A stretch of 32,583 nt of DNA, taken from positions 1 through 32,583 of the forward strand of contig MWYU01000728.1 in NCBI GenBank assembly GCA_002050375.1. Reading direction: 5' to 3'. This document shows, one piece after another, positions 14,596 through 26,687 of this stretch (position 1 is the stretch's first letter; every line of letters begins with the position of its first letter). Under the pieces are notes generated by a model that was not told where the DNA came from, made no database searches, and saw only the letters and a list, made by a program, of their open reading frames with translations. This DNA comes from Chitinophagales bacterium 62-2 (GTDB lineage Bacteria > Bacteroidota > Bacteroidia > Chitinophagales > Chitinophagaceae). A program made the position numbers and the translations under genes.

Positions 14596-17500
14596 TTAGA
14601 ATTTACCGGGAAGCGCTTCTCTTAGTAATTGTTGATAAGCATCCATATTTTTATTAGTTTTTAATAACTCAAGATTGGCGTTACTAATGATTATAAAACT
14701 GTATTTATTTGCTGACAGCCACGGCAAAATTCTGCTTCCGGTAACTGGTCTAACTTCGTCTATATAATTAACTGCAGCCTTTGCATCGTTAAAAGGCCCT
14801 TCTAAAACCATATTGAACCTTTCATCTAATTTTAAAGAAGACATGGCAATGGGTTGGTTATAAAACCTTTCGCGGTTATAGCGGTTGAACGCATTTCTCG
14901 CCTCACTTGCGTAAACCTCATCTACTTTATCCATAAGCAATACGACATATTGTGGATCGGTTGAAACAAAGGTGAAATTCTTAACGACTATTGGAGCAGG
15001 AGGTGCAACGGCGGTATCTTTTTTAATGTCAGGCTTTTTAGCGACAGGAGGTGCAGCTACAGTATCTTTTTTAACTACAGGTTTTTCAGTTATAGCAGGA
15101 AGTTTAGCTACAGTATCTTTTTTAACTACAGGTTTTTCAGTTATAGCAGGAAGTTTAGCTACGGTATCTTTTTTAACTACAGGTTTTTCAGTTATAACAG
15201 GAGGTTTAGCTACGGTATCTTTTTTAACTGCCGGAGGCTCAGGTTTCACGTTAATAGGATTGTTAACCTTTGGATTATTATCAACTTTTGGTATTGCAGT
15301 GCCTGCATTTTCATTTGTAGGTTTTGTTACTATTGTATTATCTACCGGCATACCCTTTCTCACATCCTCGTTTCTCGTAATTTCTAGTTTAGCAAGATCA
15401 CTTTCAATTTGTTTGCGTCGTCTTAAAACATCAATCATTGTTTTAGCGCGTTCTGCCATAGGATTACTGCTATATAAACTGGTAAGATTGGTAAGCACTT
15501 TTATAGCAGTACTGTCTTCGGTTTGCTTTACATAATAAATAGATTCAATAAACAACAGTTGGGGCGTCCAATAAGAATTGCCGTAAATGCTGTCTGCAAT
15601 TTTCTTTTCTGATTTCGCCCTCTCAAAATTCCCTTCGATAAACATGTTGTAAATGTCTTCGTACTTTTTTGTTGCAGGGCCTGACTGAACGTTGTTTTTA
15701 GCAAGTGCCGGGTTTTGTATCAGTTTTGCAAGCTTGCCATTTGGTGAGGATGCAATAAGCGCCCTTTTATAAAAATCAGCTTTTTCTTTATCGCCAGTTT
15801 TTTGATAAGCATTAGCAAGATTGAAAAGTATTTCTTCGGTATAAGCATTATTTGGAAAGCGCCTTAGCAGTTCTTCGTATGCTTTTATAGCCGAAGGGTA
15901 GTCTTCCAGTTTATTTAAAAATGTTTGTGCAAGGGTATACAAAGCTTCTCTTACTGTAATATTGCTTTCAGCAATTTGCTGGTCGGTGAGCGGCACATTT
16001 TGCAGTAACCCCTCATAGCTAATATCGGCTGTTTTCCCCGATGTATTATTTGCAGTATTTGCCGCAGCGCCGGTATCTATAATTGCGAGGCCGGGGTTTT
16101 GACGGTTTGCTGCACCTTGCCTGCGCCAGTTATCTGTATTAGGGCGCTGTCCCCACCTGCTTTTAAATTCGCTAAACCCGCGTGCTTTTGCTGAAGCATT
16201 ATAAAAATAAAAATCATTGCTTTTCTCGGTGCTTGCAAACAAATCGGAAGCCTGCTGCATTACAGCGGGATTAACACTTTCTACCTCTTCGTCTTTTAAG
16301 CCCTGTGCTCTGCGTAACTGCCGCGCCAGTTTTTTTATAAACGCTTCTCTTTGTTCAGCAGGCATTTTAGCAAGCGCCTGTAAACTATCCTGCCTGGTAA
16401 TGCTAACCGTATTTTCCGTAATAATTTTTAAAGGAGGTTTACGATCGTTTACCCTGTTCCTGTCAGGATCATTTGAAAGAGCATTTACTTCAACACTGTC
16501 GTAGAAATTATATGCAACGGGATAAATTTTACGGTCAAAATTCATATCCCCTAATAAAAGAAAAGATTGGCTTCGTTGGGCAGGATTATTTGCAGTGTAC
16601 TTCACACTTTTAAGAAGATCGTCCTGTGCATTTTCAAAGTTTTTTCTTTCAAGCTCGATGGAGGCTGCGGCATAATAAATAATGTCCCTGTAATTTTCGT
16701 ACTTATCTCTTCTGGCCATTTGGTGAAGCGCATCAATATTCTCCTGCATGTAATTCTTATTATCAGAACGGTTAATTCTAATTGAATTTAGGCGTGCATA
16801 AACATCCATGACAGGATCGGTAGTGTGCTTTATACTACGATGGTAATATTCCACCGCTTCTTCGTTCTTATTATCTAACTGGTACATCTGTGCAATCAGA
16901 TATTCCCAACGGGCTCTTTCCTGGCCGGTAGAAGCCTCAGTGAGTGCATTGTTTAAATGAAAAGCAGAGCTGTCGTAAACCTTTTGTTTATAAAACCAGT
17001 AAGCTAAAACTTCCTCTAAATCTGTGTGTAACCTCGCTGGAAAATTAAGATCGTTTCTAAGTATTTCAATTACCCCTGCAGCTTCTCCGAATTCATTCTT
17101 CTCAATATGGTTTCTCACCTGCCAAATAAAACTTTCGTTACGGCTGGGCTGGCGGGTGGTAAGTTTATTCCAAATGCTGCTTTTTTCAACTGTTGCAATA
17201 CTAAATTCACCTTTATCGTTACTTGCATTACTGCCAATGGGAATATGATAGCCGCCTTCCTCCTTGGGCGCATAAGCGTAATTGAGATATTGTAATGTTA
17301 GTCCGGCAGAGTCCTGGTCTTTCCTATAAAAATATGCTTTGGCTAAAAGCAAATACATATTATCTATCCAGCTATTTCTAAGGTCATGCAATAAAATACC
17401 TGCCGTGCATTTATAAATAATAGAGTCAAGTTCGCTCTTATCCTGCGAGGTTACATCTAGCGAGTAATTATAAAAAGAAAGCAGTTGTGAGTAATCATCT

Positions 17501-17853
17501 TTAAAAGAAGTTTTTGCACGAACTACCAAATCGTTTAGACGATTGTTAGCGTTGAAATAGTAGTTATAATGAGTAGTTGTATTATGATAAACCTTTCGGG
17601 GAAAGTTGAATTTTTTATTACCGGTTTTTTCAGAAGCTAATTTCCTGTTTTCATATTTTTTAGGTTTGATAAGTTCTACTTCAAACCCTTTTTGAGCATG
17701 ACTGAATAAAAACAAAAACGATAAAAGAAGCGTAGTGTATATACTACGGATATAGATCTTGAATAATGGACGACTGTTTAAAAGCATAATCAGGAAGAAA
17801 ATATTTTTAAAAATAACGTTATTTTTCTTTGCGGGCATAGGAATACAGGCCAA
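14596..17853 (-). CDS. porW: TPR protein of the PorW/SprE family (type IX secretion / gliding); start may be internal ATG at 17787
   Basis: N-terminal KVYHNTTTHYNYYFNANNRLNDLVVRAKTSFKDDYSQLLSFYNYS, multiple TPR-like repeats, length of about 1,060-1,085 aa, and a C-terminal segment (NFTFVSTDPQYVVLLMDKVDEVYASEARNAFNRYNRERF). Confidence 0.8.
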   Translation of the reverse strand: MACIPMPAKKNNVIFKNIFFLIMLLNSRPLFKIYIRSIYTTLLLSFLFLFSHAQKGFEVELIKPKKYENRKLASEKTGNKKFNFPRKVYHNTTTHYNYYFNANNRLNDLVVRAKTSFKDDYSQLLSFYNYSLDVTSQDKSELDSIIYKCTAGILLHDLRNSWIDNMYLLLAKAYFYRKDQDSAGLTLQYLNYAYAPKEEGGYHIPIGSNASNDKGEFSIATVEKSSIWNKLTTRQPSRNESFIWQVRNHIEKNEFGEAAGVIEILRNDLNFPARLHTDLEEVLAYWFYKQKVYDSSAFHLNNALTEASTGQERARWEYLIAQMYQLDNKNEEAVEYYHRSIKHTTDPVMDVYARLNSIRINRSDNKNYMQENIDALHQMARRDKYENYRDIIYYAAASIELERKNFENAQDDLLKSVKYTANNPAQRSQSFLLLGDMNFDRKIYPVAYNFYDSVEVNALSNDPDRNRVNDRKPPLKIITENTVSITRQDSLQALAKMPAEQREAFIKKLARQLRRAQGLKDEEVESVNPAVMQQASDLFASTEKSNDFYFYNASAKARGFSEFKSRWGQRPNTDNWRRQGAANRQNPGLAIIDTGAAANTANNTSGKTADISYEGLLQNVPLTDQQIAESNITVREALYTLAQTFLNKLEDYPSAIKAYEELLRRFPNNAYTEEILFNLANAYQKTGDKEKADFYKRALIASSPNGKLAKLIQNPALAKNNVQSGPATKKYEDIYNMFIEGNFERAKSEKKIADSIYGNSYWTPQLLFIESIYYVKQTEDSTAIKVLTNLTSLYSSNPMAERAKTMIDVLRRRKQIESDLAKLEITRNEDVRKGMPVDNTIVTKPTNENAGTAIPKVDNNPKVNNPINVKPEPPAVKKDTVAKPPVITEKPVVKKDTVAKLPAITEKPVVKKDTVAKLPAITEKPVVKKDTVAAPPVAKKPDIKKDTAVAPPAPIVVKNFTFVSTDPQYVVLLMDKVDEVYASEARNAFNRYNRERFYNQPIAMSSLKLDERFNMVLEGPFNDAKAAVNYIDEVRPVTGSRILPWLSANKYSFIIISNANLELLKTNKNMDAYQQLLREALPGKF
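15005..15240 (-). repeat. 51-bp in-frame tandem repeat in porW (unit about VVKKDTVAKLPAITEKP)
   Basis: Near-identical units starting at 15056, 15107, 15158 and a partial one at 15209, with a degenerate copy upstream from about 15005; spacing exactly 51 bp. Confidence 0.95.
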
Positions 17854-20180: not shown

Positions 20181-20250
20181 ATTTATAATTCTAAATTCGT
20201 ACTTCGTATTTCAACCCTCGTACTTCGTATTTCGTACTTCTTACTTTTCA
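20181..20250 (-). repeat. Degenerate heptanucleotide repeat (consensus TACGAAR) filling the sucC stop-to-terminator interval
   Basis: Minus strand from the stop codon: TGAAAAG TAAGAAG TACGAAA TACGAAG TACGAGG GTTGAAA TACGAAG TACGAAT TTAGAAT TATAAAT (10 x 7 nt). Confidence 0.85.
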
Positions 20251-22408: not shown

Positions 22409-23581
22409 TTAGGGTTTCATAAAGTCTACAATAATTTCAGCGGCATTCGCTGATGCATGTCCACCTTTTGTCAAAAGATCTTTAAGAGCTTTATAATCCT
22501 TTTGCAACTGTGCACGACGTTGTTGATTCTGCAAAAGCTCTTTCAACTCCTTAATGCAATTTTCGGTAGTAAGATCTTTTTGTATTAATTCTTTAACCAC
22601 TGGTTTGTCCATTATCAAATTAACGAGCGATATATATTTTACCCTGATCACCCTTTTTGCAATTTCGTACGATATTGGATTTCCTTTATAGCAAACAACT
22701 TCAGGTACCCCAAATAAAGCAGTTTCAAGGGTTGCTGTTCCGCTTGTTACTAAAGCTGCTGAAGCCTGATTAAGCAGGTTATAAGTTTGGTTACTAATTG
22801 AAGATACATTTTTGTAAGGCTCCATAAAAGGGTCATAAAAATCATCCTGGAGGCCGGGAGCTTTTGCAACTACAAATTGAAAGTCAGGAAATGATTTACT
22901 CACCTTCAACATAATCGGAAGCTTTACATTTATTTCCTGTTTACGGCTTCCGGGTAGTAATGCAATTATACATTGAGAATCATCGGTTGCCGGTTGCCAG
23001 TTATCTGTTGCCAGTTGTTCATCGTTTGTTGTTCGTTGTTTGGTGCCGGTTAACTGCGGTCTATTATTCTTCCTAAATTCTTCTATCACTTCTATCAGGG
23101 GATGGCCTACATACTCAACTTTGTAATCCCATTTTTGGTAATAGTCTTTTTCAAACGGTAGAATAACCAGCATTTTGTCTACACATTTCTTAATTGTTTT
23201 CACCCTCTGTTCTTTCCACGCCCATACCTGCGGAGAAATATAATAAACAGTTTTCAAATTTTGCCGTTTAGCCCATTCTGCAATTTTTATATTGAACCCG
23301 GGATAGTCAATAAGAACAATAACATCAGGCTTAAAAGCAAGAACATCTTCTTTACAAAATGCGAGGTTTTTTAAAATAGTTTGCAGGTTAAATAACACTT
23401 CAACAAAGCCCATAAAAGCAAGGTCTTTATAATGCTTTACCACAGTTGCACCCTGGGCCTGCATTAAATCTCCGCCCCAGCACCGGATGTTTGCCTGGTT
23501 ATCTAATCCATAAATATGTTTTATAAGATTACTTCCATGCAGATCACCGCTTGCTTCACCGGCTATAATATAGTATTTCAT
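22409..23581 (-). CDS. lpxB: Lipid-A-disaccharide synthase
   Basis: MKYYIIAGEASGDLHGSNLIKHI; CWGGDLMQAQGA; FMGFVEVL; IDYPGFNIKIAEWAK; YYISPQVWAWKEQRVKTIKK; YVGHPL; IALLPGSRKQEI; SGTATLETALFGVPEVVCYK. Confidence 0.96.
   Translation of the reverse strand: MKYYIIAGEASGDLHGSNLIKHIYGLDNQANIRCWGGDLMQAQGATVVKHYKDLAFMGFVEVLFNLQTILKNLAFCKEDVLAFKPDVIVLIDYPGFNIKIAEWAKRQNLKTVYYISPQVWAWKEQRVKTIKKCVDKMLVILPFEKDYYQKWDYKVEYVGHPLIEVIEEFRKNNRPQLTGTKQRTTNDEQLATDNWQPATDDSQCIIALLPGSRKQEINVKLPIMLKVSKSFPDFQFVVAKAPGLQDDFYDPFMEPYKNVSSISNQTYNLLNQASAALVTSGTATLETALFGVPEVVCYKGNPISYEIAKRVIRVKYISLVNLIMDKPVVKELIQKDLTTENCIKELKELLQNQQRRAQLQKDYKALKDLLTKGGHASANAAEIIVDFMKP
22979..23055 (-). repeat. Degenerate heptanucleotide repeat inside the lpxB coding sequence
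   Basis: Minus strand: AGTTAAC CGGCACC AAACAAC GAACAAC AAACGAT GAACAAC TGGCAAC AGATAAC TGGCAAC CGGCAAC CGATGAT; 11 units of 7 nt. The tract encodes most of TGTKQRTTNDEQLATDNWQPATDD. Confidence 0.8.
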
Positions 23582-26650: not shown

Positions 26651-26687
26651 CTAACTTATAACTTTACTACTTAAAACTTACCACTTT
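26651..26687 (-). repeat. Degenerate heptanucleotide repeat (AAGTNNN) directly downstream of the lpdA stop codon
   Basis: Minus strand: AAGTGGT AAGTTTT AAGTAGT A AAGTTAT AAGTTAG; first unit overlaps the TAA stop (26686-26688). A further AAGTTGG lies in the terminator loop. Confidence 0.8.

Follow-up and report, generated by a model that had tools for sequence, protein, structure and literature searches.

Heptanucleotide repeats of a kind already known from bacteria probably enter coding DNA recurrently in the Chitinophagaceae and survive there as polar, disordered protein loops. The array that the original prediction had pointed out inside lpxB is one instance of this family-wide pattern. It lies in the window, by which we mean the whole 32,583-nucleotide stretch of DNA that was analyzed, and its host, which belongs to the Chitinophagaceae, is Segetibacter-like. 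The relevant features of the window are as follows.

22409-23581, minus strand: lpxB, encoding lipid-A-disaccharide synthase, 390 amino acids, intact, single copy (Pfam PF02684, E 7e-90).
22979-23041, minus strand: nine degenerate 7-nt units, in frame, encoding KQRTTNDEQLATDNWQPATDD (sequence; TRF rows at 22986-23042; shuffle P values below).
22979-23056, minus strand: codons of residues 176-201, a predicted disordered loop leading from helix 161-172 to strand 205-209 (AlphaFold).
20189-20246, no strand assigned: intergenic heptad array of TTCGTAC/TTCGTAT units (TRF).
26653-26686, no strand assigned: short intergenic heptad array of AACTTAC units (TRF; sequence).

The gene at 22409-23581 is the sole LpxB match of the window's genome, adjoins a surE gene, and encodes a protein with both the PF02684 domain and the LpxB fold over its full length. 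Its array comprises 63 nt, that is, nine units and 21 codons (21 amino acids), and the units, namely AAACAAC, GAACAAC, AAACGAT, GAACAAC, TGGCAAC, AGATAAC, TGGCAAC, CGGCAAC, and CGATGAT, are present letter for letter as originally described. The period-7 self-match of the loop, scored at a mismatch cost of 1, was unreached in 20,000 base shuffles and 20,000 codon shuffles (P = 5e-5), and a mismatch cost of 1.5 gave P values of 4e-4 for base shuffles and 1e-3 for codon shuffles. Periods 4-6, 8-10, 12, and 13 gave no signal under shuffles in this loop, period 14 is a consequence of period 7, and period 11 was weak (P 0.005-0.015); with the loop masked, the same gene scored 6 for period 7, as compared with 19 for the loop. 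The window array is therefore a heptanucleotide simple sequence repeat (SSR) in having tandem 7-nt units beyond chance, whereas its units, which differ at several positions, are not of the near-identical kind that is competent for slippage. It is a decayed heptad array. We found no inverted arm at this array (score 6) and no hairpin within it, its folding being no better than that of shuffles (z 0.25).

In an AlphaFold2 model built with 53 family sequences (mean pLDDT 87), residues 176-201, which precede the conserved LLPGSR motif, form the sole stretch with pLDDT below 50. The insert as first delimited (22979-23055) matches the codons of these residues to within one base, and its proposed location in a tolerated loop agrees with the predicted disorder. 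Alignment of relatives, which might have revealed an ordinary conserved segment, found conservation of neither length nor sequence; the insert is variable and often absent. Between the YVGHP and LLPGSR motifs, the window's LpxB has 57 amino acids, as compared with 47 in G004, a member of the same genus, and 34-36 in eight further members. The nearest solved relative, by both sequence and fold, is Escherichia coli LpxB (5w8n/5w8s/5w8x), from which we draw only the fold, because the superposition is poor (TM ∼0.6, rmsd ∼21 Å).

We surveyed 96 distinct LpxB proteins of the family for period-7 matches against nine control periods. At a score of at least 12, a period-7 array was present in 11 of the 96 and in none for the control periods; at a score of at least 10, the counts were 15 and 0-2, respectively. 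Twelve of these 15 arrays lie in the same loop as that of the window, two lie at a second site, and one (L006) lies in ordinary sequence just past the loop and is probably a chance match. Loops that bear arrays are longer (median of 36 versus 24 amino acids between anchors, P = 1e-6), and a tree computed with the loop left out requires a minimum of 11 changes of the trait, a rough count since this quick LpxB tree contains many weak branches. The units, namely AGCTTTG/AAACAAC, GAAGTAC, GGAATTT, AGCAACC, CACTCAC, ACCTTAA, GGAACCA, AGTGAAT/GGTCAAT, and AGGAGAT, are mostly unrelated between species, although L052 and L088 have units in common, which indicates that arrays also persist by descent. 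Fresher, less degenerate arrays occur in L041 and L046, and isolates are among the carriers (Ilyomonas limi, L038, and the near-closed genome G004), so that the arrays are not an artefact of metagenome assembly. Some heptad-bearing loops are of normal length (L230, L225, and L223), so that insertion does not account for everything. Among ∼20 LpxB loops from other families of the order, one (L218, of normal length) gave a weak heptad match.

The second site, near LpxB residue 105, carries AAGCTCA-type heptads in two sister species (L070:10316-10351 and L095:1991-2022) and CAACAATCAACAGTCAAC in a third (L100/L223); it is a second permissive site. Overall, the density of arrays in lpxB is ∼8 times that in the rest of the coding DNA at the same loci (10 in ∼0.09 Mb versus 14 in ∼1.09 Mb). 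The original prediction had expected loop lengths to vary in steps of 21 nt, or 7 amino acids. This was borne out for two sister pairs: the L070 and L095 loops differ, with a clear gap, by exactly 21 nt, equal to three heptads or 7 amino acids, and the L046 and L075 loops are likewise 21 nt apart, though here the agreement is one of length alone. It did not extend to the remaining sister pairs, which differ by 39, 15, or 6 nt.

Heptads are also the prevailing short tandem repeat of these genomes. Across 1.35 Mb from relatives, we counted 55 period-7 arrays as compared with 0-13 for each other period from 4 to 13, the next being period 8 with 13, and the same dominance was seen in G000. The window's genome holds 14 heptad arrays of score at least 12 in 0.53 Mb (these counts rest on ∼11% of the genome), which makes heptads a dispersed class of SSR there, and one unit type, that of 20189-20246, recurs at two other loci of this genome (L113 and L121). 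In Chitinophagaceae genomes such arrays lie mostly between genes, and other families of the order have them as well, at lower density. The description of the lpxB insert as an intergenic-type repeat therefore holds in that heptads of the same kind are common between genes in the genome and the family, but not for the window array's own units, which a search allowing up to 3 mismatches found nowhere else in the genome, so that no donor is visible. A universal heptad consensus was considered and rejected, as the likelihood over 86 arrays was 178 against 152-174 for 12 permuted controls, with only a weak purine-run pattern. Elsewhere in the window, a 51-nt tandem repeat (15055-15229; 3.4 copies, 97% alike) lies in the gene of a 1085-amino-acid TPR protein (14596-17853).

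Intergenic arrays often come in inverted pairs. An inverted partner was found within 100 nt of 29 of 60 intergenic arrays, as compared with 1 of 60 for reversed units and 4 at random places; for coding arrays the count was 4 of 28, with none in the control. Some of the intergenic pairs form very stable hairpins (z −6 to −7). Long hairpins of this origin occur at L235:1511-1578, L062:19041-19113, L103:13567-13641, and L064:12184-12281, and these pairs are kept between related species while their units drift; they are possibly terminators or products of strand-switching copying.

Genes other than lpxB also contain arrays. In the window's genome (0.53 Mb) and in G004 (0.40 Mb), these genes encode ValS, LipB, BshC, PurE (near the N terminus), a DUF7033 protein, and a class II ribonucleotide reductase; in relatives, they encode MutS, an Lhr helicase, a GHMP kinase, and an M1 peptidase. 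The identities of the host genes were confirmed by Pfam. ValS carries arrays in three loops in seven genomes, with units that are all different, namely at reference residue ∼451 in G000, G001, G005, and G009, at ∼617-624 in G012 and G017, and at ∼208-222 in G014, while LipB carries them in one loop in three genomes (G000, G014, and G022). The LipB array of G000 (L152:5829-6008, contig 44) comprises ∼26 units over 180 nt, keeps its 7-nt phase while the unit type drifts along it, and sits between the first helix and the NHLLFVEH motif of this lipoyl(octanoyl) transferase.

Of 38 genic arrays, 33 have the orientation whose translation is the more polar (P = 4e-6), and 31, versus 5, are A-rich on the coding strand. 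The bias agrees with selection for loops that are polar and harmless; coding strands that are A-rich in general could contribute as well, and, because this may be the case here, orientation alone is no proof of selection. The arrays at L046:7032-7067 and L075:3716-3751 (CTACTTG and TACTACT), whose strand sense is opposite to that of the polar loops, code for the hydrophobic stretch of what appears to be a signal peptide (KKILLATCYLLLANC; KKILLTTCYLLFTTC) in an M1-peptidase-like protein. Copy numbers of genic arrays gave no clean modulo-3 signal, since coding and intergenic copy numbers overlap broadly and array ends are blurred. Comparison of flanks between close species yielded no genic empty-site pair close enough to show a single insertion; the close species had arrays in common, with drifting units and small changes in length.

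Within single genomes, the spread of units is uneven. The lpxB unit of G004, AACCAGG, is scattered over seven sites of that genome; neither the 60 other genomes nor the reversed control yielded a match. A mobile element with common flanks was rejected as an explanation, as these sites have little in common beyond the repeats. Exact units were in common for 4 of 112 pairs within a genome and 28 of 3111 pairs between genomes, the former being only weakly above the latter. Of two further lpxB units, CACTCAC occurs at one place in its host (L038), and GGAATTT has, in L041, one perfect site and a further site with a mismatch, in searches whose control was poor because reversed CACTCAC is almost the same repeat. 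In these searches, the genomes of L033, L040, L064, and L062 differed sharply from the L079-, L083-, L087-, and L098-type genomes (handles G061-G087); for these two units, some family genomes hold many copies of the given heptad array and others hold none.

How the arrays arise admits more than one account. In-situ replication slippage alone, by which arrays would have grown from chance near-repeats already in the loop without copying between sites, is a possible, if rather doubtful, explanation: units differ between species and mostly also between sites of one genome, the L070 and L095 lpxB loops lie exactly three units apart, and slippage related to the polymerase footprint has been proposed for bacterial heptads (Mrazek et al. 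2007, as cited in PMC4692102). Single-unit steps would, however, shift the frame of an essential gene, so that growth would have to proceed in threes or in one jump, and a single heptad stands at seven unlinked places of G004 while occurring in no other genome of 61. That same distribution, with unrelated flanks, speaks for copying of heptad blocks between sites by template switching, ectopic gap repair, or a small mobile element of a new type, the genic copies being landings in which the frame was kept. The inverted partners of intergenic arrays, more frequent than in the reversed control (29 versus 1 of 60), are what strand-switching copying would give. Yet we found no target-site duplication, enzyme, or conserved flank, and CACTCAC and GGAATTT showed no comparable spread in their host genomes; as a full account, copying is likewise entertained only tentatively. 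Between an array copied in and one arisen on the spot, G004 favors copying, whereas the scarcity of common units elsewhere (4 of 112 pairs) favors local origin. Neither "invasive" nor "slippage-driven," the labels originally attached to the lpxB repeat, is proven.

A functional role for the array, whether in phase variation or as a hairpin that regulates lpxB, appears very unlikely. While changes of one 7-nt unit would switch the reading frame, and the folding of some lpxB arrays is better than that of shuffled sequence (L041, z −2.8; L046, z −2.3), the window array is degenerate and hence a poor slippage substrate, its folding is unremarkable, 81 of the 96 relatives fall below the array threshold, and lipid A generally needs LpxB. 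Still less credible is an ordinary low-complexity linker that happens to be periodic. The degeneracy of the single window array and the L006 match of similar score in ordinary sequence would allow it, but the shuffle P values (5e-5 to 1e-3) speak against it, and the appearance of period 7 specifically, and of no other period, in the same loop of 12 relatives refutes it at the level of the family.

The best account remains recurrent entry of heptads into coding DNA. A heptad block would occasionally form in, or be copied into, a coding region; blocks that are in frame, stop-free, polar, and placed at a solvent-exposed disordered loop would be tolerated and then drift, and the remaining genic blocks would be purged. 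The lpxB linker at residues 176-201, which has been filled repeatedly with unrelated heptads, would be one such permissive site, and the LpxB loop appears to tolerate rather than use its insert. As 7 is not a multiple of 3, genic gains probably came as three-unit blocks or their multiples, or as blocks with uneven ends, and we infer that most of them were block events. The generator would presumably be replication slippage or template switching in 7-nt steps, with occasional copying between sites. A bolder version, in which an active process of the Chitinophagaceae writes heptad blocks, often as inverted pairs, at new sites in 7-nt steps, seems improbable.

Rickettsia palindromic elements, which are palindromic, measure ∼100-150 bp, follow a family consensus, and lie in frame in housekeeping genes, where they are tolerated at protein surfaces, offer a parallel in that small repeated DNA stands in frame in housekeeping genes. 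Unlike them, the arrays here have no consensus element and only a 7-nt period: the window array does not form a palindromic hairpin (inverted-arm score 6; folding z 0.25), nor does it belong to a set of many copies, being unique in its genome, and the consensus of 86 arrays barely exceeds permuted controls.

The closer likeness is to bacterial heptad SSRs, with which these arrays share a 7-nt unit, degenerate copies, and a mostly intergenic location with a minority in genes. Such repeats have been described as GGGAATC in Xanthomonas and GGGGA(C/T)T in Nostoc, where 7-11% and about a third, respectively, lie inside genes (PMC4692102), and as TAACTGA in Beggiatoaceae, cyanobacteria, and five Bacteroidetes (PMC4679880, which also cites heptads in Calothrix). 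In Nostoc PCC 7120, lpxB is named among the repeat-associated genes, with no statement of whether the repeat is inside or beside the gene. In contrast to the heptads of Xanthomonas, Nostoc, and Beggiatoaceae, which comprise one or a few unit families per genome, those of Chitinophagaceae comprise many units, and the recurrent in-frame entry of unrelated heptads into the same loops of essential enzymes is new relative to PMC4692102 and PMC4679880, where it is undescribed. Borg elements likewise contain tandem repeats inside open reading frames that create disordered segments, with unit lengths that are all divisible by three and that yield perfect peptide repeats (PMC9879509); the Chitinophagaceae unit, at 7 nt, is not divisible by three, so that successive units are read in all three phases in turn.

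An indel in a conserved enzyme is usually taken as a lineage signature or as a functional loop. In LpxB, a large share of the variation in loop length derives from a class of repeats with a unit length indivisible by three, which has come to occupy these sites independently on many occasions, and loop indels filled by heptads therefore call for caution as phylogenetic markers. The same loops provide a natural record of where essential enzymes tolerate insertions, and the old question of why bacterial tandem repeats favor seven bases becomes testable in culturable genera. If an active heptad-writing process does exist, whether through strand-switching copying or an enzyme of a new type, it would give the family a steady source of disordered loops in essential proteins.
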